NCBI GenBank assembly: GCA_016192455.1
Contig: JACPUC010000010.1
Location: 1-64,000 of the forward strand
DNA length: 64,000 nucleotides
Reading direction: 5' to 3'
From: Candidatus Tectimicrobiota bacterium
GTDB lineage: Bacteria > JACPUC01
Shown: positions 15,258 through 30,829 of the stretch, one piece after another
Position numbering within the stretch: the first letter of the stretch is position 1
How the letters are laid out: each line of letters begins with the position of its first letter
Made by a program: the position numbers and the translations under genes
The notes under the pieces: model-generated
Seen by the model: only the letters and a program-made list of their open reading frames with translations
Databases searched by the model: none
Told to the model about the DNA's origin: nothing

Positions 15258-15334
15258 TGTCGTTCCTCCTCCCCTGAGTCCGCGAACCGCCTTGCCGAGC
15301 TGTACCTGCCCCCGCTCTACAACCAACGTCACCG

Positions 15335-16927
15335 TTAGTCAAGGCAGACGTCGCGCCGCGGCCACCAGCGCGGAATGCCGTAGTCCTCGCAGATGACCCC
15401 TGCCGTGATGTACCCGGGGTAGCCCCGCAGGTTGCCGCCGGGATGCACGTGCGAGCCGCAGAGGTAAAGGTTGGGGATGGCGGTGCGGTAGGGGGGACGG
15501 TTCTCCATGAGCTGGCTGGCCTTGTAGCTGATGCCGCTGAAGGCGCCGCGGCGCATGTTGACGAGGGTGCGCTCGATGTCCAGCGGGGAGTAGGCGATCT
15601 TGCCCAGGATGTTGGCCTCGTCGAGGTTGTCGGCATGGTCGCGCCAGGTCTTCAGGCAGCGCTCCATCTGCACCATCTTCAGGTCGTCCCAGCGCGCCGC
15701 GCCGCCGTCCTTCAGCTCGTAAGGGGCGGGCTGCCAGAGGTAGGAGACATGGCCGCCGTTGCGCGGCCCCTGGGTGCGGTCGAAGATCGTCATGCAGCCG
15801 GCGCCGAAGCTCGCCTCGCTGGCCACCTCGCCGCTGCGCAGCATGCGCCGCGCCTCGGGGATGCGGTCGAAGGTGGGGTGGCCGACGTTCCACTTGATGG
15901 CGCGGTCCACGTCGGGGTTCTTCTTTGCCGCATGGTGACGCGGCGGCTCCTTCATGGCGAGGTAGACGCCGAAGATGCTCAGCTCGCTCATCTCGTAGCC
16001 GCGCATGCGGGCGGCGAAGGCGGCCTGCTCGGAGGAGAGGGCGGCGCCATCGAGGAGGGTGCCGAAGGTCTGCTCGAGGTCGATGTTGCTGACGACGCAC
16101 TTCTTGGCGCGGAAGGTGCGGCCGTCGCTGGTGCGCACGCCGACGGCGCGGCCGTCCTCGAGGAGAATCTCCCGCACCGGCGCGTGTTCGAGGAGCAGGC
16201 CGTTGTTCTGCGCTATGATGTGCTCGAGGGCGTGGGAGAGGTCGTGGCTTCCCCCCTTGCAGACGGTGAGGTGCGTCCAGCCGCGGAAGTTCTTGATCAG
16301 CGTGCCGTCGATGCCCGGCTCATCGGGAAGCGAGCTGGGGGCGTCGATCATGTAGATGAGGAGACACTTCAGGATGTCCGTCTCGAAAATCTCGTCCGCC
16401 ACCTCCAGGGGGGTGCGCTTGATGATCGACAGGTAGCGGCGGCCATCGGCGCTCTTCGAGTAGAGGGCCTGCCGCTCCGCCATGGGGCGCGGCGGGTTGA
16501 GCCACTCGGGGATGGCGAACTTCTCCGCCAGGCGGACCCACTCGTGCCCCACCTCGCGGTAGACCTTGGCGTCGCGCTGCGAGAACTGGGCGATCGACTT
16601 GCAGGTCAGCTCGATGTCGTCGTAAACCACCAGGGCGCGCCCGTCGGGCAGAATCTGGGCGATCTTCGCGGGGGGCGTGAGGAGGGTGCAGTACTTCGGC
16701 AGCTCGAGGTCGGTGACCACGGGGGAGTAAGCGAAGTCGCTGAAGTTCGTGGCGTGGTGGTTGACGTAGAAGCCCGGCACGCCCGGGAACTCGATGCTGC
16801 ACAAGCCGCCGCCGAACTCCATGCGCCGCTCCAGCAGCAGCACCCGCTCGCCGGCCTTGCCGAGGTAGCCGGCCAGGATCATGGCGTTGTGCCCCGATCC
16901 GATGATGATGACGTCGAAGTCGCTCAT
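15335..16927 (-). CDS. PYROXD2/CrtI-like NAD(P)/FAD-dependent oxidoreductase (copy A)
   Basis: 530-aa flavoprotein of the amine oxidase/phytoene desaturase superfamily. The N-terminal FAD site is DVIIIGSGHNAMILAGYL followed by LLLERRMEFGGGLCS. The C-terminal contact reads LYLCGSHVHPGGNLRGYPG. Despite likeness to carotenoid desaturases, there are no other carotenoid genes here, and this branch resembles human PYROXD2, whose reaction is poorly known. Two paralogues are at 17670-19238 and 49505-51100. Start 16927 begins the Rossmann motif; the frame is open further upstream only through the dispersed repeat. LivK-like gene follows after 77 nt. Confidence 0.85.
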   Translation of the reverse strand: MSDFDVIIIGSGHNAMILAGYLGKAGERVLLLERRMEFGGGLCSIEFPGVPGFYVNHHATNFSDFAYSPVVTDLELPKYCTLLTPPAKIAQILPDGRALVVYDDIELTCKSIAQFSQRDAKVYREVGHEWVRLAEKFAIPEWLNPPRPMAERQALYSKSADGRRYLSIIKRTPLEVADEIFETDILKCLLIYMIDAPSSLPDEPGIDGTLIKNFRGWTHLTVCKGGSHDLSHALEHIIAQNNGLLLEHAPVREILLEDGRAVGVRTSDGRTFRAKKCVVSNIDLEQTFGTLLDGAALSSEQAAFAARMRGYEMSELSIFGVYLAMKEPPRHHAAKKNPDVDRAIKWNVGHPTFDRIPEARRMLRSGEVASEASFGAGCMTIFDRTQGPRNGGHVSYLWQPAPYELKDGGAARWDDLKMVQMERCLKTWRDHADNLDEANILGKIAYSPLDIERTLVNMRRGAFSGISYKASQLMENRPPYRTAIPNLYLCGSHVHPGGNLRGYPGYITAGVICEDYGIPRWWPRRDVCLD

Positions 16928-17025
16928 GCCGTTTCCTCCTCGGCAGGCGCCGCTCCTGTTACGCCGCACACGTTCGATGCTGAATTCGACGCCTTGCTCG
17001 CGCCATGTGGGGGGGGGAATTTTTG

Positions 17026-17122
17026 TGGGGACCCTTGCTCCCCCACACCTCCATGCCGTAGGGACGGTTCGCGAACCGCCCCTACAAGGCGGGGTGCGCG
17101 AGGGGGCGCGGCTCCCTCGCAA
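17026..17122 (-). repeat. Dispersed hairpin-rich repeat, copy 2
   Basis: Inverted copy of the element at 11683-11781. The central palindrome GGTTCGCGAACC is at 17066-17077 inside GTAGGG...CCCTAC arms. It occupies most of the 226-base gap between the CoxG-like gene and flavoprotein A. Confidence 0.8.
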
Positions 17123-17153: not shown

Positions 17154-17660
17154 CTAGGTTTCGTCAAGGACCTTGATGTTGCTGTTCAGAATCCGCGCCA
17201 CGTTGCTGATGAACTGCCCCTCGAGTTGGTTGCGCTTGCTCTTCAGGACCGCCTCGAAGATGCGCCGCAGCCGCCCCACCGCCTCGACGTCGATGGTGTA
17301 GACGATGCACGTCTGCTCCTCGCCCTGGGGGCTGAGGTCGAGCTGAATCTCCACCTGGGCGGTGGCGCCCTTATCGACGTCGCGCACGCGCTGGGCGAAG
17401 GCTTCGCCGGAATACGACACGCCGTGGGCGCGCAGGCGCGCCGGCGGCCGGCGCTCGGTGACCGTCATGTGGGCGCGGTTCTCGACCGGAATGAGGCCGA
17501 TCTTCAGCCGCATGAGGAGCTCGACGTTGTCCTCGTCGATCTGCTGGTGCCCCTCGCAGGTGGGCACGCAGGACGCCAGCGTCGAGACGTCGTTGAAGAA
17601 GGTCCACACTTTCGCGATCGGCACGTCAGCGAGCAGGCGGTTATGGAGCGTCAGTTTCAT
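17154..17660 (-). CDS. CoxG-like SRPBCC-domain protein
   Basis: 168 aa, START/Bet v1-like fold as in CO dehydrogenase subunit G. The N-terminus VPIAKVWTFFNDVSTLASCVPTC matches the CoxG motif (VWxxLxDxxxLxxCxPGC), followed by the acidic DNVELLMRLKIGLI strand and the amphipathic C-terminal helix with RRIFEAVLKSKRNQLEGQFI. CoxG proteins sit with Mo hydroxylases and are linked to their maturation or membrane recruitment. Here it sits between two PYROXD2-like flavoproteins, starting 9 nt after copy B stops, so the two are almost surely translated from one mRNA. Confidence 0.85.
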   Translation of the reverse strand: MKLTLHNRLLADVPIAKVWTFFNDVSTLASCVPTCEGHQQIDEDNVELLMRLKIGLIPVENRAHMTVTERRPPARLRAHGVSYSGEAFAQRVRDVDKGATAQVEIQLDLSPQGEEQTCIVYTIDVEAVGRLRRIFEAVLKSKRNQLEGQFISNVARILNSNIKVLDET

Positions 17661-17669
17661 GCCACGGCC

Positions 17670-19238
17670 TCATTGAGCCAGCCCGAGGTCCTCGAGGATG
17701 ATGGTTGCGGCGTTCCCTCCGGGCGAGCCGATGATGCCGCCGCCGGGATGGCAGCAGGCGCCGCAGAGGTAGAGGTTCTTGATCGGCGTGCGGTGCTGGG
17801 AGAGCTCGGGGGAGGGGCGGAAGTAATCGAGCTGGTCAAAGGACATGCGCCCCATGAACACCCCGCCGTGACGCATGTTGATGAGCTTGCGCTCGATGTC
17901 GAGGGGCGAGTAAGCGACCCGCGCCAGAATGACGCGGTCCGTGAGGTTGGGGGCATACTCCCGCCAGGCTTCCAGGCACCAGTCGGTGAACTCCTCCTTG
18001 ATGGCGTCCCAGCGCTCGGCGCCGCCGTCGCGCAGGTGGTACGGCGCGAGCTGCCAGATGAGGGCGGTGTGCTTGCCGGGGGGCGCCTGAGAGCGGTCGA
18101 AGAGGGTGGGAACGCTGCAGAAGAGGGCCGGCTTCGTCGGCACCTCGCCGGCGCGCACCTGGGCCAGGATGGTATCGAAGTCGGCGGGCGTCTCCAGGCC
18201 GATGTTGAGCCTGAAGGCGCGGTCCACGTTGGAGTCGAAGGCGGCGGCGCGGTGCCGCGGCGGCTCCGCCAGCGCCAGGTGCACGCTGAAGAGGGAGAAC
18301 TCGTCGAGCTTGTAGCGCCCGACCCAGCGGCGCGTCGCCTCGTCGAGGTGCTCCGGCTGGAGGAAGACGTTGAAGGTCTGGTGGATGTCCACCGCGCTGA
18401 TGACGGCTTTGTCGGCGCGCACCTCGGCGCCGTCCTCCAGGACGATGCCGCGGGCGGCGCCGTTTTCGACGATGATGCGCTGCACGTGGCTGCGGTCGTG
18501 CAGGGTGCCGCCGAAGGTCACGAACGCCTTGCCGAGGGCATGCCCCAGCACGTGCGAGCCGCCCAGACAGAGTTGCGAGTGCTCCACCATGCTGATGACC
18601 AGGGGGATGACGGCGCCCACGCCATGGTAGTCCGGCAGGATGCCGCGCGGCACCGGCAACTGGTGGAGAATCAGCGCCTTCACCTCTTCGCACTCGAAGA
18701 GCTCGTCGACCACGTCGCGCGGGCTCATGCGGCCGAGGCGTAGGAACTCCCGCCCCTCGGGGCTCTTCTCGAGCATCTCCATCTGCTGGGTGGGAGGCAC
18801 GGCCGGCGTGAACAGGGCGGGAATGATGACGAGCTCGATGAACTCGCGGTAGGCGTCGTAGACCTCGCGGTACGTCGCGGCGTCGCGCTGCGAGAAGCGG
18901 CCGATGGAGGCGCAGGTATCGTCGATGGTGCGCGCGAAGGTGAGGGCCCGGCCGTTGCGCAGGGGCAGCCCGGCGGTCACCTCGGGGCGCGCGTAGCGGG
19001 CGTTGAAGCGCACCAGCTCCAGGTCCTCGTAGGGGGGCATGATGTTGATCGTATCGTGGAAGTAGGAGTGCAGGTTGTGGTAGAAGCCGGGGAGGGTGCA
19101 TTCCTCGGTGGAGAGGCCGCCGCCGTACTCGAGGCGGCGCTCGAAAATCACCACCCGCAGCCCCGCCTTGGCCAGGTAGCTGCCGGCGATGAGGCCGTTG
19201 TGGCCACCCCCGATGATGACGATATCGAACTCCGCCAT
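17670..19238 (-). CDS. PYROXD2/CrtI-like NAD(P)/FAD-dependent oxidoreductase (copy B)
   Basis: 522-aa paralogue of copy A. FAD site: [18 protein letters not shown] then [16 protein letters not shown]-terminal contact [20 protein letters not shown]. It shares with copy A the long central region with a [20 protein letters not shown] stretch and [16 protein letters not shown]. The start at 19238 (MAEFD) is preferred; a Met two codons earlier exists. It lies upstream of the CoxG-like gene with a 9-nt gap and downstream of nrfD-like gene by 217 bases that contain a hairpin and three 11-bp repeats. Confidence 0.85.
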
Positions 19239-19296
19239 GCCCAATCCTTACGCGAGACGAGTCCTTGAAGGCAGATGGTAGCCTCTCAATGTCCAA

Positions 19297-19455: not shown

Positions 19456-20379
19456 CTAGACGGTGCGAAGCCGCGGCGCCTGGGTGAGAGGAAGGTAGAT
19501 GCCCGCCTTGGCAATGCTGTACTTCACGAAGAAATCACCGATCACCGAGGTGAGGCCGAGGATGGCCAGCCCTCCCATCGACAGCGGCGACATCATCCCC
19601 AGGATGCCCATGGCGATCGGCGCCAGCAGGCCGACAACCAAGGTGCCCACGTAGAAGCTGATCGACACCCGCCCATTCAACAGCTCGTGCACCGACTGCC
19701 GGGCCACCGGGTTGGCGCCGGAGATGACGCCGAGATAGAAGAGGATCATCACCAGCGCCGAGGCGCCGATCCAGAGCTCGATGAGCTCCAGGTTGGCGGG
19801 GTGGAAGGTCGGCTGGAAGAGGGCGATGACCACCAGGAGCATGGCGACCCCCCCGCGCAACCCATAGGCGACGTAGAGCGCCGGCAGGATGGGAGAGTTC
19901 CAGAAGGGGATGCCTATCGAGGAGGAGTAGACGAACCCCTTGTAGAGGAGCATCATCACCGCCCCCGCCATGGCCACGACGTTGCCGGCCCAGCTCAACC
20001 AGGAGTTGGCGCCCCACGGCGCGCCCGCCACGACGTGCGGCAGGAGCGCGAAGAAGCCGCCGACGATGAAGAGGTTCAGGCCGATGAAGCCGCGGGCGAT
20101 CCAGGCGGTGCGCGCGTGCCACATGCGCCAGAAACGGCTCGGCCGGCCGAGGAAAAGGAGGTGGGCAAGGCCGCTGAGCAGGGCAAGGACGTAGGCCGCC
20201 AGGGCGCCGCCCACGAACTGGAAGGCCAGCGCAAAGACCCAGGTGCCCGCCGCCACGCCGGAGAGGAAATGGCCGATGATGAGCAGCAGCCCCTGCCGCT
20301 CGATCCATTCCCGCTGCGGGCGATACTGGGCCCGCAGGTCCTGCAAGAGTTGCTCGTAGCGCCCTCTCGTGCTGTCCAC
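19456..20379 (-). CDS. NrfD/PsrC-family membrane subunit of a molybdoenzyme complex
   Basis: 307-aa polytopic membrane protein with about eight hydrophobic segments, beginning EWIERQGLLLIIGHFLSGVA, then LALLSGLAHLLFLGRPSRFWRM, a hallmark segment of NrfD-like quinone-interacting subunits. The start is a GTG at 20379 with GGGGGAG upstream; the longer open frame above it lacks family-like sequence. In PsrABC/DmsABC-type complexes this subunit exchanges electrons with quinone. It follows the ferredoxin subunit by 282 bases and is the only such subunit for two catalytic paralogues. Confidence 0.88.
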   Translation of the reverse strand: MDSTRGRYEQLLQDLRAQYRPQREWIERQGLLLIIGHFLSGVAAGTWVFALAFQFVGGALAAYVLALLSGLAHLLFLGRPSRFWRMWHARTAWIARGFIGLNLFIVGGFFALLPHVVAGAPWGANSWLSWAGNVVAMAGAVMMLLYKGFVYSSSIGIPFWNSPILPALYVAYGLRGGVAMLLVVIALFQPTFHPANLELIELWIGASALVMILFYLGVISGANPVARQSVHELLNGRVSISFYVGTLVVGLLAPIAMGILGMMSPLSMGGLAILGLTSVIGDFFVKYSIAKAGIYLPLTQAPRLRTV

Positions 20380-20661
20380 GATGATCTCCCCCTCTGCCGC
20401 TTGCCAGAAGCGGTTTGCTATCGATCTTTGCCCGCGGTGTGCCACCAACGCCGCCGCGCCTGTCGTGCTGGAGGAACGGCCCCCTTGGGGCGATGCCGCA
20501 TCCAAACCTGCGCGGGACCGGCATCCCACGTGGTCCACACTCCCAAGCTGGCGCGCAGGCGCGGGCGCCAGGGAAGAGTGGAGACCACGCCCGCGCGCCG
20601 CCCTGCCGCGGCGGAGAGAACTCTCCGGCTTGCCTGGCGCAGTTTGGCGCATTGCCGCCGA

Positions 20662-21270
20662 CTACGGTGGCAGGTAGTAAACGCTGGGTCCGGTGCCGAG
20701 TTCCGGGTGCAGCGTGTAGCCGCCGCGCTCCTTGATGAGGTGCGACACCTGGCTGCGCGGATCGTCGAGGTCGCCGAAGTAGCGCGCCACCGTCGGGCAG
20801 TTGGCCACGCAGGCCGGCTCCTTGCCCTGGGCCGTGCGCTCCCGACAGAAGTCGCACTTCATCACCACGCCTTCCTGGTGACGCTGCACGCGCATCTGCT
20901 CGTAGGGCGTGGCGCCGTTGTTCGGGAAGTAGTGGCGGTTCTCGTCGTTGAAGTAGCGCGCCCCGTACGGGCAGGCCATCATGCAGGCGCGGCAGCCGAC
21001 GCAGATGTCGGCGTCCACCGCGACCACCCCGTCGGCCTCCGACTTGGCGGTCGCGCCCGTCGGGCAGACCTCCTCGCAGGGCGGCTCCTCGCAATGGAAG
21101 CAGAGGACCGGCAGGAAGATCATGCTGACGGTCGGGTAGGTGCCCTCCTCGTGCTTCAGGACCCGCGCGAAGAAGACTCCGGGCGGCGTTCCATGTTCAG
21201 CCTTGCAGGAGAGCTGGCAGCCGTAGCAGCCGATACACCGTTTCAGGTCTATGACCATTCCCCATCGCAT
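20662..21270 (-). CDS. Four-cluster ferredoxin subunit (DmsB/PsrB/NrfC type)
   Basis: About 202 aa with four Cys groups for [4Fe-4S] clusters: CIGCYGCQLSC, CFHCEEPPCEEVCP, CVGCRACMMACPYGARYF and CDFCRER...CVANCP. This is the electron-wire subunit between a Mo catalytic subunit and an NrfD subunit. The gene start overlaps the end of the upstream Mo subunit (stop at 21249), a sign of translational coupling. Starts at 21294, 21270 and 21258 are all possible; 21258 (MVIDLKRC) matches the family N-terminus most closely, 21270 is used here as a compromise. Confidence 0.9.
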   Translation of the reverse strand: MRWGMVIDLKRCIGCYGCQLSCKAEHGTPPGVFFARVLKHEEGTYPTVSMIFLPVLCFHCEEPPCEEVCPTGATAKSEADGVVAVDADICVGCRACMMACPYGARYFNDENRHYFPNNGATPYEQMRVQRHQEGVVMKCDFCRERTAQGKEPACVANCPTVARYFGDLDDPRSQVSHLIKERGGYTLHPELGTGPSVYYLPP

Positions 21271-23846
21271 CGCGTCACCCCCACTTTGACGCACAGGTCC
21301 AAATTCAGGTTGGCTGGGCTGCTATGCTCCATGTCAACCTCAAGGAGATCATTGATGAAGACCCCTTTGCCCTTGGCAATCGGCTGGGCCTCGGTCCAGT
21401 GGCCGGCGCAGGCGGCGATGCCCAACCCCTCCGGATGGATCGCCTCGGTCAGGTGGACCCGGCCGCGGATGCGCCGACCCTTCACCGATTCAATCCACAC
21501 CCAATCCCCATCCTTCAGGCCCTTGCGGCGGCCGGCTTCGCTGTGCATGGCAGCGGTGTAGGAGAAGGGATCGAGCTGGGCCGTCTCGTCCAACCATGGG
21601 TTCTCCATGGTGAAGCTGTTGGTATGGATGGCGTCGCGATAGTAGAAGGCGTAGAGGTCATGCTGCTCCGACGTCTCCTCATGGGAGACGCAGGGGAGGA
21701 AGCTCGGCAGCGGTGAGTAGTACTCGCGCGGGATGTGCCAGCCGCGCGGCTCCGCCAGGGCGTTCGCCTGCTCCCATGTGTCGATGAGAAACTCCCAGTA
21801 GATGGGCACGCGCACGTTCTCGAAGTGGCGCCAGTACACCTCCTCCGGTTTCTTCGGCCACTTTATGACGCCGTGCTGCTTGAACCACTCGAGGCCGTGT
21901 TCGGGGCCGAAGTTCGACTTCAACTCCATGTCGCAGATTTCCCGGTACGTGTAGCGCTTGTCGCGCTCCAGGCGAAACGGCGCCGCAAGCCGCATGGAGA
22001 CGTTGTACCCCTCGTTGAGGTCTTCACGGATGCCGATGCGGTCGGCCAGCTCAACGAGCAGCTCGGAGGACTCGCGGCGCTCCCCCGCGGCTTCCACCAC
22101 CGGCTGCTTCACCGGCCAGCACCACTCTCCCATGCCGCCCGGCAGATTGAAGATGAACGGGAAGTTCGGCCGCGAATCGTGCGCCTCCATGTAGCTGCAG
22201 TCGGGCAGCACGATGTCGGCGAACTCGGAGAACTCGGTGATGAAGAGATCGATGGAGATGATGAAGGGGATGCGCTTCAGGGTCTTCGCCACCGTCTCCG
22301 CGTTGCCGACGCTGAGAAGCGAGTTGCAGCCGAAGTTCAGGAGCACCTCCGGCCGGTAGGGGAGGTCGAAGCGCTGCCACATCTCTTCCTGATCGGAGGA
22401 GGCCATGAGGGGCGACATCATGGTCATCGGGTAGAGGTCGATGAGACTCATCGTTTCCGGCATGCGCGGCTCGTGCATGGGGTACGGCAGGTGCGGCGCC
22501 ATCCAGATGCCGGTGATCATCAGCCCGTCTTCGTCGGCGTAGGGGATGTAGTGCGGCCGGCCGGTCTCGGGGTGGCCGTGGCAGGAGGGGTTGAAGCCGA
22601 GGCACCCCCCCACCATGTCCGCCGAGCCGACGAGTTCGTTCAGGAGGTCCACGGCGAGGAAGTTGTAGACCGAGTTCTTGTGTCCCTGGGCGCCGCGGAA
22701 GGCGATGGCCGCCACCGGCCGGTACGGCAGGGTGCGCCCCTGCACCTCGATGGTGCTGCCGATGCGCGCCTCGCGCCCGAACTCCTGCCCGAGGCGGCGG
22801 ATGGTGGCGGCGGGCACGGTGCTGATCGACTCGCCCCACTCCGGCGTCAGCGGCTTGAGGTGGGCCTTGAGCCGCTCGAAGGCCGTCGGGCACTCGAGGC
22901 CGCTGACCGTGTGCACCCCTTCCAGGGCCATCTGCTCCGGCTCGACGGCGTCAAACGGCTTGGCGCTCTTCGTCTGGGTGTCCCAGACGAGCGGCTTGTT
23001 CGTCGCCGCGTCGCGCAGGTAGCGGCCGTCGGGGCCGGTCAGGTACGGGCCGTTCGTCTTCGCTTTCAGGTAGGGGGAGTCCCACAGGCGCAGCTCGTGC
23101 ACCAGGGTGTGGCACATGCCGAGGGCGATCGCCGCGTCGGTCCCGACGCGCAGCGGCACCCACTCGGTGGCCTTGGCGCCGGCGAAGTTGCAGATGGGGT
23201 CAACCACCACCATGTGCATGCCGCGCGCCCGGGCGTCGGCCGCCATGCCCATGTTGGAGCAGGAGGCATGGCCGGCGCTGTGGCCCTTCGAGGCGCCAAA
23301 GTAGACGGCGTAATTGCAATACTGGAAATCCGGCACCACCGACCAGGAAGCGTGCATGATGCCGCTGATGAGGTGGGCGCCGTTGCCGCAGTGCAGGCCG
23401 CCGCCGGCCACCCACGAGTTCGGCGTGCCGAAGGCCCAGCCGAAGACCTGCCAGGGGGTCCGGCTGGAGGTGTTCGTGGTGGTGCGCTGGATGAAGAGCT
23501 TGCGGGGATCATCCTGGCGCACGTGGCGCAGCTTCTCGCCGACGATGTCCAGCGCTTCGTCCCAGGAGATCTCCTCCCACTTCGGGTCGACCCCGATCCC
23601 CTTCTCCGGGTTCGTGCGGCGCAGCGGCTTGTTGAGGCGATGCGGGTCGTAGAGCGTCATGATGCCGCTGATGCCCTTGCCGCACAGCCGCCCCTTGCCC
23701 AAGACGCTCTCCGGGTTCCCTTCGATCTTCGTCAGAACACCGTCCACGCGGTGCCCCAGGATCGAGCAGGTGCCGTAGCACATGCTACAGGCCGAGGGAA
23801 TCCACACGTCCTCGGCCGCAACCGGCGCCTGAGCTGCTACCACCAT
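21249..23846 (-). CDS. Molybdopterin oxidoreductase catalytic subunit, paralogue 2 (no Tat signal)
   Basis: 865-aa Mo/W-bisPGD enzyme of the DMSO reductase family. The N-terminal [4Fe-4S] site is Cys20, 23, 27 and 55 (CSMCYGTC, then GRLCGKG). The likely metal ligand is Cys153 in GGGLHCGNGAHL, by position relative to other family members. Later MGD-binding stretches (GASKGHSAGH, NFGCNSLLSVGNAETV, ADIVLPDCSYMEA) and the C-terminal barrel (DGDWVWIESVKGRRIRGRVHLTE) are present. There is no twin-arginine leader, so the protein should face the cytoplasm, unlike most NrfD partners. It overlaps the ferredoxin gene and is preceded by a MoaD-like gene. I cannot name the substrate. Confidence 0.88.
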   Translation of the reverse strand: MVVAAQAPVAAEDVWIPSACSMCYGTCSILGHRVDGVLTKIEGNPESVLGKGRLCGKGISGIMTLYDPHRLNKPLRRTNPEKGIGVDPKWEEISWDEALDIVGEKLRHVRQDDPRKLFIQRTTTNTSSRTPWQVFGWAFGTPNSWVAGGGLHCGNGAHLISGIMHASWSVVPDFQYCNYAVYFGASKGHSAGHASCSNMGMAADARARGMHMVVVDPICNFAGAKATEWVPLRVGTDAAIALGMCHTLVHELRLWDSPYLKAKTNGPYLTGPDGRYLRDAATNKPLVWDTQTKSAKPFDAVEPEQMALEGVHTVSGLECPTAFERLKAHLKPLTPEWGESISTVPAATIRRLGQEFGREARIGSTIEVQGRTLPYRPVAAIAFRGAQGHKNSVYNFLAVDLLNELVGSADMVGGCLGFNPSCHGHPETGRPHYIPYADEDGLMITGIWMAPHLPYPMHEPRMPETMSLIDLYPMTMMSPLMASSDQEEMWQRFDLPYRPEVLLNFGCNSLLSVGNAETVAKTLKRIPFIISIDLFITEFSEFADIVLPDCSYMEAHDSRPNFPFIFNLPGGMGEWCWPVKQPVVEAAGERRESSELLVELADRIGIREDLNEGYNVSMRLAAPFRLERDKRYTYREICDMELKSNFGPEHGLEWFKQHGVIKWPKKPEEVYWRHFENVRVPIYWEFLIDTWEQANALAEPRGWHIPREYYSPLPSFLPCVSHEETSEQHDLYAFYYRDAIHTNSFTMENPWLDETAQLDPFSYTAAMHSEAGRRKGLKDGDWVWIESVKGRRIRGRVHLTEAIHPEGLGIAACAGHWTEAQPIAKGKGVFINDLLEVDMEHSSPANLNLDLCVKVGVTRCDGEWS

Positions 23847-23931
23847 GCCTTGTTTCCTCCTCCCTTGGGTGAGGCTTCGTTCCGCACCACCTGGACGTCT
23901 TCGGAGCGTGCCTCTCGGTGGTGTTGGAGAG

Positions 23932-24225
23932 CTAGCCCCCTTCCGCCGCCGGTAGGAGCATGAGACTCACTTCCGTCGGCAACCCATTGATTTGCAGCAC
24001 GGTATCGAGATCGGTCACCTCGGTCTCGTTCACGAAGATGCGCAGGTAGGTCTGCAAGGCCCTGGGGTTGCGCATGATGCGCTGCCGGAACTCCGGTCCG
24101 AAGCGCGCCTCCAGGGCGTCGAGGGCATCACGGAGATGCGCGGGCTCGGCCAGCTCGAGCTGCAGGTCGCGCGTGCCGGCCATGGCCCCCAGCATGCCGA
24201 AAAGCTTGATCGTCACGAGCGCCAC
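23932..24225 (-). CDS. MoaD/ThiS-like sulfur carrier protein 2
   Basis: 97-aa ubiquitin-fold protein that ends in the Gly-Gly tail (AAEGG) needed for adenylation and thiocarboxylation. The first strand VTIKLFGMLGAMAG is typical of MoaD. GTG start at 24225 with a long GGAGAGGAGAGG purine tract just upstream. MoaD carries sulfur for molybdopterin. Its place 85 nt before a Mo enzyme gene, and duplication with it, suggest a dedicated supply of pterin for that enzyme. The paralogue at 27028-27408 has an extra insertion. Confidence 0.88.
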   Translation of the reverse strand: MALVTIKLFGMLGAMAGTRDLQLELAEPAHLRDALDALEARFGPEFRQRIMRNPRALQTYLRIFVNETEVTDLDTVLQINGLPTEVSLMLLPAAEGG

Positions 24226-24249
24226 CGGCCTCTCCTCTCCTCTGGTGTG

Positions 24250-24286
24250 CTGTAATAGTTACTGATACTACTGTTTCAGCACGACG
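24250..24286 (-). promoter_or_regulatory. Promoter segment with imperfect inverted repeat before MoaD-like gene 2
   Basis: An AT-rich spot in GC-rich DNA. On the minus strand GTGCTGAAACAG and CTATTACAGCAC form an imperfect inverted repeat around TAGTATCAGTAA. A -10-like TATCAG (24267 down to 24262) lies at the spacing expected for a class II activator site centred at -41.5 (see 24290-24303). An A-rich run lies further upstream near 24310-24330. Confidence 0.4.
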
Positions 24287-24289
24287 AAA

Positions 24290-24303
24290 TTGACGCCGGT
24301 CAA
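24290..24303 (-). promoter_or_regulatory. CRP/FNR-like box TTGAC-N4-GTCAA
   Basis: Perfect palindrome TTGAC GCCG GTCAA centred 71 nt upstream of the MoaD-like gene 2 start. The same half-sites with the same spacer length occur before MoaD-like gene 1 (27496-27509). The layout matches boxes of the CRP/FNR superfamily (FNR itself prefers TTGAT-N4-ATCAA). It suggests activation under low oxygen or by nitrogen oxides, but the regulator is not in this window. Confidence 0.6.
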
Positions 24304-24375
24304 ACTCCACATAATTTTTTCTTTTTTCCGTTGGTTTATGTCTACGCCCCCTTCAGCCGCCGGCGTGCGCGCCGC

Positions 24376-27009
24376 TCACGCCTCCTCGCAGCGCCGCAGC
24401 CGCACCTTCACGCAGAGATCAAGGTTGAGGTTCACCGGGCTGGCGTGGTCCATGTCGATTTCCAGCAGTTGATTGAAAAAGACCCCCTTGCCCCGCGCCA
24501 CCGGCATGCCATCGGTCCAGTGGCCGGCGCAGCCGCCGATCCCCAGCCCTTCAGGATGCATCCCCTGCGTGAGGTGGACGCGCCCACGCACCCGCCGCCC
24601 TTTCACGGTCTCCATCCACACCCAGTCGCCGTCGTGCAGGCCTTTTTTCTTGCCGGTCTCGGCGTTCATGGCGATGTAGTACGAGTTCGGGTCGAGCTGC
24701 GCCGTCTCGTCCAGCCAGGCGTTCTCCTGCGTCAGGCTGTTGGTGTGGATGGTGTCGCGGTAGTAGAAGCCGTAGAGGTCGAACTGCTCATCGCTGCACT
24801 CGTGGCCGGGGCAGGGGAGCCAGGTGGGGAGGGGATCGTAGAACTCCTCCGGCAGGTGCAGGCCGCGCGGCTCGGCCAGCGCTCGCGCCTGATCGCCGAC
24901 GCGCTTCAGGTACTCCCAGTAGATCGGCACCCGCACCTCAACGAAGGGGCGCCAATAGACCTCCTGCGGCTTCTTCGGCCAGGAGAGAACGCCGTGCTCC
25001 TTGAACCACGCGAGATCGTGCCGCGGGCCGAAATTCGACTTCAGGTGCTGGTCGCAGACCTCGGCGAAGCTGTACTGCTGACTGCCCTTCAGGGTGAACG
25101 GCGGCTGCAGCTTCAGCAGGGCGTTCAAGGCCATGTTGATGTCTTCGCTGATGCCGACGCGCTCCGCCAGCTCGAGGAGCACCTGGTTCATCTGCCGGCG
25201 CTCGGCGACCGGCTCGATGAGCGGCTGCCGAACCGCCCAGCACCAGTCGCCCATGCCCCCCGGCAGGTTGAAGATGAAGGGGTAGTTGGGCTTCGAGTCC
25301 AACTGCTCGAGGTAGCTCATGTCGGGCAGGACGATGTCGGCCAGGTCGGAGAGCTCCGTCCTGAAGAGGTCGAAGGAGACGATGAACGGGATGCGCAGCA
25401 GGGTATTGATGACCGTTTCGCTGTTGCCGACGCTCATCACCGAGTTGCAGCCGATATTGATCATCACCTCCGGGCGGTAGGGGAGATCGAAGCGCTGCCA
25501 GCGCTCCTCCTGGTCCGCGGAGGCCATGAGGGGCGAGCTCATCCCCAGCGGGAAGAGCTCGTTGAAGCCCATCGACTTCGGCATGCGGGGGTACTCGAAG
25601 GGGTAGGGCAGGTGGGGGACCATCCAGCTCCCCGTCACCATGAGGCCGTCGGGGCCGGCGTAGGGGACGTAGGCGGGACGCTTTGTCTCCGGGTGGCCGT
25701 GGCAGACCGGGTTGAACCCGAGGCAGCCGCCGACCACGTCCGCCGCCCCGACGAGGTGGTTCAGGAGGTCGATCGCCAGGAAGTTGTAGACGGCGTTGCG
25801 GTGCCCCTCGGAGCCGCGGAAGGCGATCGCCGCCACCGGCCGGTACGGCAGCCGCACCCCGTCGATGACGATGGTGCTCCCCACCCGCGCCTCGCGCCCG
25901 AACTCCTGCCCCAGGCGGCGGATCGTCGCCGCCGGGATGGTGGTGATTGGTTCCGCCCACTCCGGCGTGTGCCGTGCCAGGTGTTCCTTCAGGCAGGCGA
26001 AGGCCGGCCGGCAGCGCACCCCCTGCGCCTCGTACTCCCCTTCCAGCGCCAGCTCGCCCAACGGCTCCTGCCCAAGCTTCTCGGCGTTGTACGGGCGCGC
26101 CCGCCCGGCCGTGGCATCCCACACCAGCGGCTCCTGGGTCTCGGCGTCGCGCACGTAGAGCTTGTCGGGGCCGATCAGGTAGGGCGCGTTCGTCTTGGAG
26201 GCCAGGTAGGGCGCGTCCCAGATGCCGAGCTCGTTGACGAGGACGTGCGCCATCGCCAGGGCCAGCGCCGCATCCGTGCCGACGCGGATCGGCACCCACT
26301 CGTTCGCCTTGGCGGCGGCGAAGTTGCACATCGGGTCCACCACCACCATCTTCATGCCGCGCACCCGCGCGTCCGCCGCCAGCCCCATGTTCGAGCAGGA
26401 GGCGTGCCCGGCGGCGTGCCCCTTCGAGGCGCCGAAGTAGACGGCGTACTGGCAGTGCTCGAAATCCGGCACGATGGACCACGAGGCGTGCATGATGCCG
26501 CTGATGAGATGGGCGCCGTTGCCGCAGTGCAGCCCGCCGCCGGCCACCCACTGGTTCATGGTGCCGAAGGCGTGGCAGAAGGCGTGGCAAATCGGCCCGA
26601 TGGTGGTGTTCGTGGTGGTGCGCTGCAGGAAAAGCTTGCGGGGGTCCTCGGCGCGCACCTTGCGCAGGCGCGCGGCGATCTCGTCGAGGGCCTCGTCCCA
26701 GGTGATCTCTTTCCAGCCGGGGTCGACGCCCACCCCCTTCTTCGGATTGGTGCGCCGCAGGGGGACGTTCACCCGGTTCGGGTCGTAAAGCGTCATGATG
26801 CCGCTGATGCCCTTGGCGCAGAGGCGTCCCTTGCCGATCTCGCTCGCCGGGTTGCCCTCAATCTTCGTCACCACGCCATTGACGCGATGGGCAAGGATCG
26901 AGCAGGTGCCGTAGCACATGCTGCAGGCGGAGGGGATCCAGCGATCCTCGCCGTTGGCCTCGTGGGCGCGCTCCGTCTCCGGAGTTTTCTGTTCAAACGC
27001 CTGGACCAT
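24376..27009 (-). CDS. Molybdopterin oxidoreductase catalytic subunit, paralogue 1 (no Tat signal)
   Basis: 877-aa paralogue of the enzyme at 21249-23846, similar along its whole length. [4Fe-4S] ligands Cys29, 32, 36 and 64; candidate metal ligand Cys162 in GGGLHCGNGAHL. The MGD-binding stretches (GASKGHAAGH, NIGCNSVMSVGNSETV, ADIVLPDMSYLEQ) and the C-terminal barrel are intact. No Tat leader. It has no ferredoxin or NrfD gene of its own: the next gene is MoaD-like 2, 150 bases away. It therefore either shares the downstream ferredoxin/NrfD pair or works with a soluble donor. The MoaD-like gene 1 ends 18 nt before its start. Confidence 0.88.
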   Translation of the reverse strand: MVQAFEQKTPETERAHEANGEDRWIPSACSMCYGTCSILAHRVNGVVTKIEGNPASEIGKGRLCAKGISGIMTLYDPNRVNVPLRRTNPKKGVGVDPGWKEITWDEALDEIAARLRKVRAEDPRKLFLQRTTTNTTIGPICHAFCHAFGTMNQWVAGGGLHCGNGAHLISGIMHASWSIVPDFEHCQYAVYFGASKGHAAGHASCSNMGLAADARVRGMKMVVVDPMCNFAAAKANEWVPIRVGTDAALALAMAHVLVNELGIWDAPYLASKTNAPYLIGPDKLYVRDAETQEPLVWDATAGRARPYNAEKLGQEPLGELALEGEYEAQGVRCRPAFACLKEHLARHTPEWAEPITTIPAATIRRLGQEFGREARVGSTIVIDGVRLPYRPVAAIAFRGSEGHRNAVYNFLAIDLLNHLVGAADVVGGCLGFNPVCHGHPETKRPAYVPYAGPDGLMVTGSWMVPHLPYPFEYPRMPKSMGFNELFPLGMSSPLMASADQEERWQRFDLPYRPEVMINIGCNSVMSVGNSETVINTLLRIPFIVSFDLFRTELSDLADIVLPDMSYLEQLDSKPNYPFIFNLPGGMGDWCWAVRQPLIEPVAERRQMNQVLLELAERVGISEDINMALNALLKLQPPFTLKGSQQYSFAEVCDQHLKSNFGPRHDLAWFKEHGVLSWPKKPQEVYWRPFVEVRVPIYWEYLKRVGDQARALAEPRGLHLPEEFYDPLPTWLPCPGHECSDEQFDLYGFYYRDTIHTNSLTQENAWLDETAQLDPNSYYIAMNAETGKKKGLHDGDWVWMETVKGRRVRGRVHLTQGMHPEGLGIGGCAGHWTDGMPVARGKGVFFNQLLEIDMDHASPVNLNLDLCVKVRLRRCEEA

Positions 27010-27027
27010 GAAGAGACCCTCCTGCGA

Positions 27028-27408
27028 CTAGCCCCCTTCAACCGCCGACATCACCATGAGACCAACGCGGGCCTGCTCCTCCCCACGAGGTTTCGCGCTC
27101 GCCCTGTCGGCTGCGTGAGTACCCTCGCCATCATGGGAAATCGTGCCAACGTCGAGATGAGGCGGCAGCGAGGCGGTAAGCGGGGTATCAAGGTCGTCGA
27201 CGGGAACATCGTCAAGGAAAATGCGCACGTACGTCTGCAGCACGCCGGGCTGCCGGAAGATCGCTTCGCCGAACTTGGCGCCGAAGTGTTCTCCCAGAAC
27301 CTCGAAGAGGTCCCTCAGCCGCGCCCCCTCGGCAAGCTGCAGAGCAACGCTGCGCTCCCCCATCTGCAGACCAAGGATGCCGAACAGCTTCACCGTAACG
27401 TGAATCAA
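27028..27408 (-). CDS. MoaD/ThiS-like sulfur carrier protein 1 with an internal insertion
   Basis: 126 aa with the MoaD first strand (VTVKLFGILGLQMG), a conserved LQTYVRIFLDDVPVDDLDT stretch shared with paralogue 2, and a C-terminal VEGG tail. Compared with paralogue 2 it has about 28-32 extra residues (roughly 80-112, charged and Gly/Ala-rich) between the last loop and the final strand ARVGLMVMS. The reading frame and the functional Gly-Gly are kept, so it is not a simple decay product. First gene of the long minus-strand run. Confidence 0.82.
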   Translation of the reverse strand: MIHVTVKLFGILGLQMGERSVALQLAEGARLRDLFEVLGEHFGAKFGEAIFRQPGVLQTYVRIFLDDVPVDDLDTPLTASLPPHLDVGTISHDGEGTHAADRASAKPRGEEQARVGLMVMSAVEGG

Positions 27409-27509: not shown

Positions 27510-27648
27510 GTTCTCGACAGGTTCTGTTGTTGCTGGAACTTCCGGGCAGAGCCGGCCCCCGGCGCGGCTCGGGGGCGCGGCGTCGGACGCCGCGGTTTTG
27601 GCACGCTTCTCGCACGCTCACTCCCCAGGGTGCATATTAAGGAGTGCC

Positions 27649-28599
27649 ATGATGCGCGTGCGCTTCCACGGTCGCGGCGGCCAGGGGATGAAGACGGCGA
27701 GTCGCATCCTCGGGTCGGCCGCTTTCCACGCCGGGCTGGTTGTGCAGGACTCGCCGGTGTACGGGGCGGAGCGTCGCGGCGCGCCGGTGGCGGCGTTCAC
27801 CCGCATCGCCAAGGCGGCGATCCGCGAGCGTGGCCTCATCGCCGCGCCCGATCTGATCGTGGTGGCCGACGAGACACTCCTCTTCGAGCCCACCGCCATG
27901 CCCCTCGCCGGCTGCTCCGCGCGCACGGTCGTCCTCATCAACACCGCCACCGATGCCGCCGCGCTGCAGGAGCGGCTCGCCCATCTCGGCCGTATCGAGA
28001 GCGCCGATTTCACCTCCCTCGTCTTCTCGATCACGCACACCCTGGTGGGGCTGAGCACCGCCCTCGGCGTGGCCGCGGCCGCCCTCGTCGGCTTGAGCCT
28101 CGAGGAGAGCCTCGCCGGCGTGGCGGAGGAGCTGGCGCACGCCACCCTCAGCCGCGCCGCCTACGAGGCGAACGAGCGCCTGGCGCAGGAGGCCTACGCC
28201 CTCGCCGACGCCTGGCGGGCGGTCCCCGAGCCGCTCGACGCCTCCCTCGCCCTGGCTGCCGAGGCGGCTCCTACGGCCCTCCTCGCGGCAGCGCCCGCCG
28301 GAGCTCCTGGAACGCAGCTCGTCGAGCTGCGCTTCGAGCCGCCGGCGCGCGCCACCCCAACCATCTGCGTCGCCAACACCCCGGAACGCAGTACCGGGAG
28401 CTGGCGTCAGTTCCGGCCGCTCCTGCAGCGCGACCTCTGCAACGCCTGCTGGACCTGCTTCGTCCTCTGCCCGGAAGGCGCCATCGCCCTCGACGAGCAC
28501 GAATTTCCGCTGATCGACTACGAGGTCTGCAAGGGCTGCCTGGTGTGCGTCCACGAGTGCCCGACGCACGCCTTCGCCACCGAGAAGGAGGTGCGATGA
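27649..28599 (+). CDS. porG: 2-oxoacid:ferredoxin oxidoreductase, fused gamma and delta (ferredoxin) subunits
   Basis: 316 aa. The N-terminal two thirds is the gamma domain (VRFHGRGGQGMKTASRIL, then PVYGAERRGAPVAAF). The C-terminal third is a 2x[4Fe-4S] ferredoxin domain (CNACWTCFVLCPEGAI and CKGCLVCVHECPTHAF), separate as PorD in many archaea and bacteria. AAGGAG lies 4 nt before the ATG at 27649; the Met next to it (27652) is equally possible. The stop overlaps the porA start (ATGA). The complex oxidises a 2-oxoacid to acyl-CoA with ferredoxin reduction, or runs in reverse. Reduced ferredoxin could feed the redox enzymes encoded across the divergent promoter. Confidence 0.9.
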   Translation: MMRVRFHGRGGQGMKTASRILGSAAFHAGLVVQDSPVYGAERRGAPVAAFTRIAKAAIRERGLIAAPDLIVVADETLLFEPTAMPLAGCSARTVVLINTATDAAALQERLAHLGRIESADFTSLVFSITHTLVGLSTALGVAAAALVGLSLEESLAGVAEELAHATLSRAAYEANERLAQEAYALADAWRAVPEPLDASLALAAEAAPTALLAAAPAGAPGTQLVELRFEPPARATPTICVANTPERSTGSWRQFRPLLQRDLCNACWTCFVLCPEGAIALDEHEFPLIDYEVCKGCLVCVHECPTHAFATEKEVR

Positions 28600-29867
28600 G
28601 CCGCGCCGCCGACCTCGAGCGCGCCGCCGGCCGCCATGAGCGCGGCAGGCTCCTCACCGGCAACGCTGCCGCCGCCTGGGGGGCGAGCCTGGCGGACGTC
28701 GACTACATCCCCGCCTTCCCCATCACGCCGCAGACGGAGATCATCGAGACCCTGGCGGAATGGGTGGCCGACGGCGACATTGCGGCCCGCTTCGTCACCC
28801 TCGATTCCGAGCACTCGATGCTGAGCGCCGCCGGCGCCGCCGCCGCGGCCGGCGCGCGCGTCTTCACCGCCACCTCGAGCCAGGGGCTCCTCTACGGCTT
28901 CGAAATGCTCTACGCCATCGCCGGCTGGCGCGTGCCGCTGGTGCTGGTGAACGTGTCGCGGGCACTCGCCTCGCCCATCACCCTGGAGGCCGACCACAAC
29001 GACATCCTGGCGGCGCGCGACAGCGGCTTCCTGCAGCTCCACGCGGAGACCTGCCAGGAGGTCCTCGACTCGGTCCTCATGGCCTATCGCCTGGCCGAGG
29101 ACGCGCGCGTCATGCTGCCGGCGCTCGTCAACCTCGACGGCTTCACCCTCTCCTTCACCCGCGAGCCGGTGGTGGTGCCGGAAGCAGCGGCGGCGGCCGA
29201 GTTCCTGCCGCCGTACGAGCCGAACCACGCCGCCATCCGCGGCGACCGCCCCATGGCGCAGGGGCCGGCGGTGCTCAGCGGCTTGGCCTACAGCTACTTC
29301 CGCTACCAGCAGCAGTTGGCGCAACTCAATGCCCTGGAGGTGCACGAGGAGATCGCCGCCGAGTTCGCGGCGCGCTTCGGGCGGCGCTACGGGCTGGTCG
29401 AGCCGTTCGAGCTCGACGACGCGGAGTACGTCCTGGTGATGTCGAACGCCTTCGCCACCAAGGGCAAGGAGGCGGTGGAGCGCCTGCGCAGCCGCGGCCT
29501 GCGCGCCGGGCTGTTGCGCTTGCGGGTGCTGCGGCCGTTCCCCGCCGCGGCCATCGCCGACGCCCTCGAGGGACGCATGGCCGTCGCCGTCATTGACCAG
29601 AACCTGGCGCCGGGGCTGGGCGGCATCACTTACCAGGAGGTCGCCGCCGCCCTCTACGACCGGCCGAGGCGCCCGCCGCTGCTGAGCGTCATCGGCGGCC
29701 TCGGCGGCAAGGACATTTCCGACGTCGAGTTCGATGCGGTCTTCCACGACCTGCGGCGTGCCGCCGCGGGTGAATCCGTACGCAGTCCCCGCCTCCTGTT
29801 CACGCAGGCGGAGCAGGAGCGCATGCAGACCCTGCTGCGCATCGCCGGCAAGGGGGCCAAGCCATGA
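28596..29867 (+). CDS. porA: 2-oxoacid:ferredoxin oxidoreductase, alpha subunit
   Basis: 423 aa, pyruvate-type alpha subunit: YIPAFPITPQTEIIETLAEW, then SEHSMLSAAGAAAAAGARVF and ATSSQGLLYGFEMLYAIAG, the usual domain I features, with domain II at the C-terminus (VAVIDQNLAPGLGG). The start at 28596 is fixed by the ATGA overlap with porGD, and the stop overlaps porB in the same way, so all three are translationally coupled. The alpha chain helps to form the thiamine-diphosphate site with beta. The exact 2-oxoacid is not readable from the sequence. Confidence 0.9.
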   Translation: MSRAADLERAAGRHERGRLLTGNAAAAWGASLADVDYIPAFPITPQTEIIETLAEWVADGDIAARFVTLDSEHSMLSAAGAAAAAGARVFTATSSQGLLYGFEMLYAIAGWRVPLVLVNVSRALASPITLEADHNDILAARDSGFLQLHAETCQEVLDSVLMAYRLAEDARVMLPALVNLDGFTLSFTREPVVVPEAAAAAEFLPPYEPNHAAIRGDRPMAQGPAVLSGLAYSYFRYQQQLAQLNALEVHEEIAAEFAARFGRRYGLVEPFELDDAEYVLVMSNAFATKGKEAVERLRSRGLRAGLLRLRVLRPFPAAAIADALEGRMAVAVIDQNLAPGLGGITYQEVAAALYDRPRRPPLLSVIGGLGGKDISDVEFDAVFHDLRRAAAGESVRSPRLLFTQAEQERMQTLLRIAGKGAKP

Positions 29868-30829
29868 GCGCGCCGGTGACCGCGGAAGTCGCCGCCATCA
29901 AGAACCTGAAGCAGATCGCCCGCGAGGAGTTCATCCTGCCCGGCACGGCGGTGTGCGGCGGCTGCGGCGGGCTGGAGGGGCTGCGCCTGGCGGCCAAGGT
30001 CCTCGGCTCCAAGACGGTCTACATCAACGCCGCCGGCTGCTTCACGCTGCTGGCCGTCTACCCCTACTCGCCGTTCAAGGGCTCCTGGCTCTACACCACC
30101 ATGGGCGGCGCGGCGGCGGCGGCCCAGGGGGTGCGCGACGCCCTCGACGTGCTGATGGCGCGCGGCAAACTGCCGGTCGAGGACGACGTGCAGGTCGTCG
30201 TCGTCGCCGGCGACGGCAGCACCTACGACATGGCCATGGCCGCCAACTCCGGCGCCATCTTCCGCGGCCTCGATTTCTGGTACTTCTGCTACGACAACGA
30301 GTCGTACGGCAACACCGGCGTGCAGATGTCCAGCGCCACGCCGTACGGCGCCCGCACCACCACGACGCCGGTGGGGAGCGCCGCGCGCGCCGGCACCGAG
30401 CACGGCAAGAAGGACCTGTTCGAAATCTGGCGCGCCCACCAGCCGGCCTACCTGGCCACCGTGTCGCCGCGCTACCCCGTGGACCTGACGAACAAGTTCC
30501 TGAAAGCGAAAGGCCTGCGCGGGCCGAAGCTGTTCATCGCCCACGCCTCCTGTCCCACCGGCTGGCTCTTCGAGCCGAAGCGCAGCGCCGAGGTGGCGAA
30601 GCTGGCGGTGCAGACGGGCATCTTCGCGCTCAAGGAGTGCGTCGGCGGCGCTGTCACCCACACCCATATCCCCCGCCGCCGCAAGCCGGTCGAGGAGTAC
30701 CTGCGCGGCCAGGGACGCTACGCGCACCTCTTCGAGCCGACCCGCAACGACGCCGCCCTCCGCCTCATCCAGGAGCAGGTGGACCGCTACTGGGAGGCGG
30801 CGGCGAAGGCGGGCGCCGCGTCCTCCTGA
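29864..30829 (+). CDS. porB: 2-oxoacid:ferredoxin oxidoreductase, beta subunit
   Basis: 321 aa, thiamine-diphosphate-binding beta subunit. The N-terminal AVCGGCGGLEGLRLAAK contains the CxxC that with later Cys residues holds the proximal [4Fe-4S] cluster. The TPP motif is VVVAGDGSTYDMAMAANSG, followed by NESYGNTGVQMSSATPYGA. The NAAGCFTL and YPYSPFK stretch resembles the pyruvate-type beta chain more than the indolepyruvate type. Last gene of the por operon; a 288-base gap follows. Confidence 0.9.
   Translation: MSAPVTAEVAAIKNLKQIAREEFILPGTAVCGGCGGLEGLRLAAKVLGSKTVYINAAGCFTLLAVYPYSPFKGSWLYTTMGGAAAAAQGVRDALDVLMARGKLPVEDDVQVVVVAGDGSTYDMAMAANSGAIFRGLDFWYFCYDNESYGNTGVQMSSATPYGARTTTTPVGSAARAGTEHGKKDLFEIWRAHQPAYLATVSPRYPVDLTNKFLKAKGLRGPKLFIAHASCPTGWLFEPKRSAEVAKLAVQTGIFALKECVGGAVTHTHIPRRRKPVEEYLRGQGRYAHLFEPTRNDAALRLIQEQVDRYWEAAAKAGAASS

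Follow-up and report, generated by a model that had tools for sequence, protein, structure and literature searches.

Paired MoaD proteins and two Mo/W catalytic subunits encoded with a single ferredoxin-NrfD pair in a Tectimicrobiota genome: a probably cytoplasm-facing variant of the PadBCD-like layout

The window analysed here is a stretch of 64,000 nucleotides (contig JACPUC010000010.1, positions 1 to 64,000) from the genome of a Candidatus Tectimicrobiota bacterium (GCA_016192455.1). Its minus strand carries, from 27408 to 19456, an operon of six genes in the order MoaD1-Mo1-MoaD2-Mo2-FeS-NrfD, in which two units, each of a sulfur-carrier-like protein and a molybdenum or tungsten (Mo/W) enzyme, are followed by a single iron-sulfur (FeS) protein with four [4Fe-4S] clusters and a single NrfD-type membrane anchor:

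27028-27408, minus strand: MoaD1, sulfur-carrier-like protein paired with Mo1; TTG start, C-terminal EGG, weak match to the NCBIfam model SAMP1 (5e-4)
24376-27009, minus strand: Mo1, Mo/W-bis(pyranopterin guanine dinucleotide) (bisPGD) catalytic subunit of 877 amino acids with an N-terminal [4Fe-4S] motif
23932-24225, minus strand: MoaD2, sulfur-carrier-like protein of 97 amino acids paired with Mo2; C-terminal EGG, matches to SAMP1/MoaD models at 1.6e-9
21249-23846, minus strand: Mo2, second catalytic subunit, 865 amino acids
20662-21270, minus strand: FeS subunit, four-cluster ferredoxin with 16 cysteines and four [4Fe-4S] motifs, without a leader
19456 to about 20376, minus strand: NrfD, quinone-interacting anchor of the NrfD type with eight transmembrane helices

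This arrangement had been described in a first-pass annotation made from the sequence alone, and Pfam and NCBIfam models confirmed all six genes. The domains Molybdopterin, Molybdop_Fe4S4 and Molydop_binding occur in Mo1 and Mo2 alike, Fer4_11 occurs in the FeS subunit, and Pfam NrfD (PF03916) matches the anchor with 44.7 bits. By these three domains and by fold, Mo1 and Mo2 belong to the dimethyl sulfoxide (DMSO) reductase superfamily of Mo/W-bisPGD enzymes. The two catalytic subunits, or heads, share 68% protein identity, and both open reading frames (ORFs) are intact with their active-site motifs present. The ATG of the FeS gene at 21270 overlaps the 3' end of Mo2, and orthologues place the true start of NrfD some 90 codons into the longest ORF (19456-20652). 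A search for a sigma-70 promoter pattern gave none, which says little given a genome of 68% GC.

Searches at the level of its class and phylum returned the window genome alone, and orthology was therefore drawn from one scan of GTDB contigs with a Mo1/Mo2 alignment, which gave 42 loci. Their hosts are mainly Betaproteobacteria and Rhodospirillaceae, with further members in Acidobacteriota, Myxococcota, Tectomicrobia and a cultured isolate, Aromatoleum toluclasticum, which carries two family heads. The unit MoaD-Mo-FeS-NrfD recurs across many genomes of several phyla, a gene-order check that the first-pass annotation had called for; because of this recurrence chance is excluded, and the system is confirmed as real and conserved. 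Automatic flags for MoaD, FeS and NrfD overlook true cases (e.g., L013, L050 and L031), and totals based on them are lower bounds. A maximum-likelihood tree unites the 47 family sequences in a single clade (99/99), outside which fall paralogues on long branches, and places Mo1 and Mo2 with different nearest relatives. Plasmids held only distant relatives, below 60% identity. At L052 (9986-12594), the head is split between two overlapping frames on a near-complete metagenome-assembled genome (MAG) contig, through either a frameshift or a sequencing error.

The pairing of two heads with one anchor is not confined to the window. Family heads (identity of about 55% or more) were counted against family NrfDs in 29 genomes; among the 23 with a family NrfD, heads exceeded NrfDs in 9, equalled them in 14 and were never fewer, in keeping with the earlier proposal of more catalytic subunits than anchors. 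The other 6 of the 29 have heads and no family NrfD, and in three of those six, contigs stop 74-138 bp past the end of the head gene, within the FeS gene. In the genomes G108, G116 and G119, paralogous units within a genome have FeS genes whose 5' DNA is 96-100% identical, whereas their heads are 66-79% identical as proteins. Collapse of near-identical FeS-NrfD copies during assembly would explain this most simply. The contig ends of G108, G116 and G119 (L093-L101 and L106-L113) break shortly past each head gene and expose near-identical FeS copies; looking for such breaks could help to detect homogenised modules in MAGs more generally. At L015, where the order is MoaD-Mo-FeS-NrfD-MoaD-Mo, each of the two heads has one member of the A. 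toluclasticum pair as its sister in the tree, which indicates that the two-head, one-anchor arrangement is conserved between genera; in A. toluclasticum the orthologous pair lies about 22 kb apart.

MoaD1 and MoaD2 are 44% identical over the C-terminal 95 residues, and MoaD1 carries an insertion of about 33 residues ahead of its C-terminal tail. Their SAMP1 matches, clear in MoaD2 and weak in MoaD1, both fall under the equivalog cut-off, as does the match of MoaD2 to Pfam ThiS (17.9 bits) under its own. A beta-grasp sequence match combined with a C-terminal Gly-Gly nevertheless marks both as probable members of the MoaD/SAMP group; all 22 MoaD-like genes listed end in this tail, in a search that itself required it. 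Distances among MoaDs correlate with distances among heads (r = 0.72, p = 0.0005, 27 pairs), with shared ancestry contributing, which suggests that MoaD is tied to the head rather than to the base. Together with the pairing in the operon, this agrees with the earlier idea of a dedicated carrier for each head. Operons of aldehyde ferredoxin oxidoreductase likewise have a dedicated MoaD-type gene directly beside the gene for a Mo/W-pterin enzyme, but the window enzyme is of the DMSO reductase family, not of the aldehyde oxidoreductase (AOR) family. Separate AOR genes occur near some family members.

No RRxFL-type leader for twin-arginine translocation (Tat) was found in Mo1, Mo2 or any orthologue with its N-terminus present, even when the frames were extended upstream to the preceding stop; the lack of Tat signals reported in the first pass thus survives the suspicion of a wrong start. 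The sole Tat leader in this comparison belongs to L059, an unrelated outgroup. Candidate metal ligands are Cys162 in Mo1 (motif HCGNGAH) and Cys153 in Mo2, so that both heads retain the candidate ligand as well as the FeS motif. The cysteine aligns with the ArrA and PsrA metal-ligand region and is kept across the family and its paralogues; the alignment covers this ArrA/PsrA region, with the Asp position of type II enzymes lying outside the model. No haem b subunit, a further hallmark of type II DMSO reductases (ethylbenzene dehydrogenase and perchlorate reductase), was recognised in a scan of the operon. The general motif, CGNxAH, resembles the ligand region of acetylene hydratase.

The closest solved folds to a model of Mo2 are ArrA (Z 31.6), PsrA (Z 31.2) and acetylene hydratase (Z 29.4); pyrogallol transhydroxylase has the same fold, and ethylbenzene dehydrogenase also matches, at a lower level than Arr and Psr. 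Mo2 stays under the curated family cut-offs for PhsA (235 of 694 bits), ArrA (147 of 1600) and DmsA/YnfE (129 of 778). The best solved relatives of the FeS subunit are ArrB and PsrB. A sequence search of the PDB with NrfD found nothing, but a Foldseek search with its model succeeded, matching best ActC and ActF of alternative complex III (ACIII) and PsrC; by this homology, the quinone link that had been proposed for the complex is supported.

The orientation of the anchor was assessed from how Lys and Arg are distributed over the nine loops of models with eight transmembrane helices, as counts on the N/C-terminal side against the opposite side. In the window NrfD the ratio is 17:0, in two NrfDs from phenylacetate (pad) loci of A. 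toluclasticum 15:0 and 24:1, and in a further paralogue 17:0, whereas two NrfDs beside exported-type partners, also from A. toluclasticum, give 4:14 and 2:10 (L086 and L089, with a Tat leader on the Mo subunit established for L086 only). Among 14 aligned NrfDs, the bias is present in every one with eight recognised helices. In PsrC, both termini lie on the P-side (PMC8076601). Under the positive-inside rule, the charge bias places the NrfD termini, and so probably the docking face, on the cytoplasmic side; with the missing leader, this suggests that the complex probably faces the cytoplasm, as had been proposed from the operon alone.

A leaderless complex of this kind has a precedent in PadBCD, the phenylacetyl-coenzyme A (CoA):acceptor oxidoreductase, which is characterised by a four-electron alpha-oxidation of phenylacetyl-CoA in the absence of oxygen. 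PadBCD is an alpha-oxidising complex that yields phenylglyoxylate (PMC5109826), and the work on it goes back to Rhee and Fuchs 1999, as cited in PMC9765128 and PMC2755013. Our comparison used the pad-locus sequences of A. toluclasticum and not the biochemically studied PadB proteins. Two loci of this isolate encode PadI above the NCBIfam cut-off, with PadE and PadG also above cut-off at locus C7, and each has a leaderless Mo subunit, an FeS gene and an NrfD gene. The window system shares with PadBCD of Thauera aromatica and Aromatoleum the leaderless Mo-bisPGD subunit, the four-cluster ferredoxin, the NrfD anchor with its cytoplasmic-side charge bias, the candidate Cys ligand and 2-oxoacid oxidoreductase genes alongside. 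It differs in having two heads on one FeS/NrfD base and a MoaD before the head, in place of the FdhD carried by both A. toluclasticum pad loci, at neither of which was a MoaD seen. The window heads are only 31-35% identical to the pad-locus Mo subunits over their full length, with the candidate Cys ligand kept in all, and the latter (L056 and L057) lie apart from the 47-sequence clade; the two sets are not orthologous. Nor are PadEFGHI genes adjacent in the window, since the neighbouring 2-oxoacid oxidoreductase falls under the phenylglyoxylate dehydrogenase cut-offs, with 136 bits against 700 for PadI and 300 against 700 for PadG. PadBCD is the closest described layout, and the window enzyme is not itself PadB. 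The leaderless Mo-FeS-NrfD layout is already known, and the window system is a variant of this PadBCD-like kind. The first-pass statement that no described system has this layout was too strong, since PadBCD combines a Mo, an FeS and an NrfD subunit without a leader, and the charge bias is shared by the two pad-locus NrfDs. The MoaD pairing, the head duplication and the clade itself are not part of the known PadBCD layout; a search of the open-access literature for MoaD with NrfD or phenylacetyl-CoA found no description of such a system or of the 47-sequence clade.

Other known systems are further removed. PsrABC-PhsABC and ArrAB provide the best solved relatives of the Mo and FeS subunits and, in PsrC, the fold of the anchor, yet those complexes are Tat-exported and PsrC has its termini on the P-side, whereas the window NrfD shows the inverted charge bias, and the window scores lie far under the PhsA and ArrA cut-offs. 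PsrABC, PhsABC, DmsABC and ArrAB are marked by a Tat leader and a periplasmic catalytic subunit; the window heads and their orthologues lack the leader, and the charge bias speaks against a periplasmic placement. Acetylene hydratase and pyrogallol transhydroxylase have the same fold, with a similar ligand-region motif in the former, but these enzymes catalyse non-redox net reactions and have no NrfD anchor, whereas the window heads are linked to FeS and NrfD genes.

The genes around the operon offer clues to its reaction:

27646-28602, plus strand: gamma-delta fusion of the 2-oxoacid:acceptor oxidoreductase gamma subunit and a two-cluster ferredoxin; TIGR02175 118.8 bits, cut-off 81.1
28599-29867, plus strand: 2-oxoacid:acceptor oxidoreductase alpha subunit; PorA 388 bits and PadG 300 bits, both under equivalog cut-offs
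29864-30829, plus strand: 2-oxoacid:acceptor oxidoreductase beta subunit, thiamine pyrophosphate (TPP)-binding; the best match of the genome to the PadI model, far under cut-off
17670-19244, minus strand: first CrtO/phytoene-desaturase-like flavoprotein, downstream; membership in the system unproven
17154-17660, minus strand: CoxG-like (SRPBCC) protein; membership unproven
15335-17122, minus strand: second CrtO-like flavoprotein; membership unproven
14079-15332, minus strand: LivK-type periplasmic solute-binding protein; membership unproven

The first three genes form a complete 2-oxoacid:acceptor oxidoreductase divergent from the operon. At the other loci, neighbouring genes were clustered and representative members scanned. 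Relatives of TPP-dependent decarboxylases occur at 8 of the 42 loci against 1.4-2.0 expected (P about 0.0001-0.001; 0.004-0.017 with near-duplicate loci counted once), the expectation being drawn from the frequency of TPP_enzyme_N, 188 in 62.9 Mb from 14 of the family's genomes. Beside the decarboxylase stand an aldehyde dehydrogenase at L014, L052 and L031/L044 and an AOR at L013 and L050. D-2-hydroxyacid dehydrogenases are found at L034, L047 and L049, PanE-like (ketopantoate-type) reductases at L013 and L050, a 2-oxoacid oxidoreductase at L040 as in the window, and CoA ligases at 8 family loci. L052 combines several of these in one direction: CoA ligase, MoaD, Mo, FeS, NrfD, TPP decarboxylase, aldehyde dehydrogenase and TctC. 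The recurrence of 2-oxoacid enzymes is the best-supported clue to the reaction and points to a 2-oxoacid product, as in PadBCD, at about even odds. Some of the neighbours offered earlier as hints at organic-acid catabolism are weak: the flavoproteins belong to a CrtO-like family with 12 members in the window genome, and neither the RdhA-like gene nor LivK recurred beside family members. The earlier list had not included the divergent 2-oxoacid:ferredoxin oxidoreductase. Overall, the first-pass interpretation is partly supported.

The operon may encode an oxidoreductase of the Mo/W type that is anchored in the membrane, faces the cytoplasm and acts in the manner of PadBCD, with swappable heads for quinone-linked alpha-oxidation of acyl-CoA, a reading to which we give a probability of roughly 0.5. 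Its architecture is well supported; the reaction, substrates, electron acceptor, docking and role of MoaD are inferred. In either head, the metal would probably be held by two pyranopterins and a cysteine, and the carbon next to the acyl-CoA thioester carbonyl would be oxidised to a 2-oxoacid or its CoA ester. Electrons would pass from the [4Fe-4S] cluster of the head through the four clusters of the common ferredoxin to quinone at the common NrfD. Decarboxylation of the 2-oxoacid would probably fall to the divergent 2-oxoacid:ferredoxin oxidoreductase in the window genome, and in other genomes to a TPP decarboxylase followed by aldehyde oxidation. Mo1 and Mo2 would be alternative heads for different substrates that dock on the single FeS/NrfD base, each receiving pterin sulfur from its own MoaD.

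Several observations pull the other way. At most family loci the available DNA contains no 2-oxoacid enzyme, no CoA ligase was recognised in the window, and we know of no assigned function for PRK08327, the subfamily of the TPP decarboxylases. An identity of 31-35% to the pad-locus subunits leaves ample room for a change of reaction. Beside many of the family's Mo genes there is no MoaD, FeS or NrfD gene. The FeS stretch compared is just 75-139 bp, the contig breaks reflect assembly, errors in MAG binning cannot be fully excluded for the head/FeS comparison, and A. toluclasticum is the only isolate to support the excess of heads. The positive-inside rule is only predictive and was set against just two control NrfDs. 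Finally, the principal rival signal comes from UbiD decarboxylases, which are just as common (9 loci, with L023 and L065 being one place) and would also fit other chemistry.

That chemistry could be an anaerobic hydroxylation. The same architecture might serve a cytoplasmic enzyme that hydroxylates an aromatic or unsaturated acid at a C-H bond with oxygen drawn from water, upstream of UbiD-type decarboxylases, with ethylbenzene dehydrogenase and the resorcinol and 3,5-dihydroxybenzoate hydroxylases as analogues. The UbiD relatives, the amidohydrolase_2 and gentisate-type genes near several members and the ethylbenzene dehydrogenase match, though below Arr/Psr, all fit. Type II DMSO reductases are, however, exported and have an Asp metal ligand, whereas here a Cys aligns and the leader is missing, and the recurring pairs of decarboxylase and aldehyde-oxidising enzyme point to a 2-oxoacid; we regard a hydroxylase as unlikely. 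At L045 (1012-5055), UbiD is directly preceded by a Mo paralogue (42% identical) that has NrfD and FeS genes of its own, and is followed by MoaD and a family head.

The system might instead run in the reverse direction, as a quinol-dependent reductase (e.g., a dehydroxylase), or resemble acetylene hydratase or transhydroxylase, acting on cytoplasmic organic acids. Its closest solved relatives by sequence and fold (Arr, Psr and acetylene hydratase) and the CGNxAH motif would suit such a role. The nearest relatives with a described physiological role, those of the pad loci, nevertheless oxidise, and CoA ligases and 2-oxoacid enzymes make the context a catabolic one, so that this reversal seems decidedly unlikely.

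A further alternative concerns the heads themselves, which could sit together in one heteromeric complex, one catalytic and the other structural or relaying electrons. They share a single operon, Mo2 overlaps the FeS gene, and the FeS motif and Cys ligand are kept in both; against this, 14 of the 23 genomes have one head per FeS/NrfD, both heads have all recognised catalytic motifs and a MoaD each, and the orthologous pair of A. toluclasticum is separated, which makes the heteromer very unlikely. A functionless tandem duplication with one copy heading for loss would fit the commonness of paralogues in the family and a third head of the window genome at C27, an orphan paralogue of Mo1 (88% identical) next to which there is no MoaD, FeS or NrfD gene. 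It is nonetheless the most improbable reading of all, given the mere 68% identity of Mo1 and Mo2, their different relatives in the tree, their intact ORFs and motifs and the head pairs conserved at L015 and in A. toluclasticum.

If the PadBCD-like reading is right, anaerobic acyl-CoA alpha-oxidation, known from phenylacetate, would extend to a widespread family with several members per genome, and a respiratory chain could gain new electron donors by exchanging the catalytic head alone. Chief among the new findings are the private MoaD, the surplus of heads over anchors and FeS genes that are nearly identical beneath heads that diverge. A tentative proposal, for which we would put the chances a little short of even, is that of a modular respiratory system in which divergent heads with private MoaDs share one conserved, DNA-homogenised cytoplasmic FeS-NrfD base, such that one quinone-reducing anchor serves several acyl-CoA alpha-oxidation substrates; uncultured Pseudomonadota and members of other phyla would each carry several such heads in their genomes. 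The system would also offer a natural test of the reason why certain Mo enzymes have a private MoaD and PadBCD loci have FdhD in its place.

Among the remaining genes, the CrtO-like flavoproteins have 12 matches in the window genome (including 15335-17122, 17670-19244 and 49505-51100), two of them in the operon. A carotenoid ketolase function was set aside because the scores, 268 and 206 bits, fell short of the cut-off (1000), as was a limonene-dehydrogenase-like role for the two in the operon, given the 12 matches. A reductive-dehalogenase family gene lies at 12739-13890 on the minus strand (TIGR02486 220.6 bits against 160.35), its translated start without a visible leader. The minus-strand segment 35793-39905 encodes an acyl-CoA dehydrogenase, [2Fe-2S] and flavin adenine dinucleotide (FAD) subunits like those of 4-hydroxybenzoyl-CoA reductase (the beta subunit under cut-off) and a BadI/enoyl-CoA-hydratase-like gene; a large Mo subunit was not recognised there. 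On the plus strand, a fumarate-reductase/aspartate-oxidase-like flavoprotein (9649-11331) is followed by a small ferredoxin with a weak match to HgcB (11371-11604).

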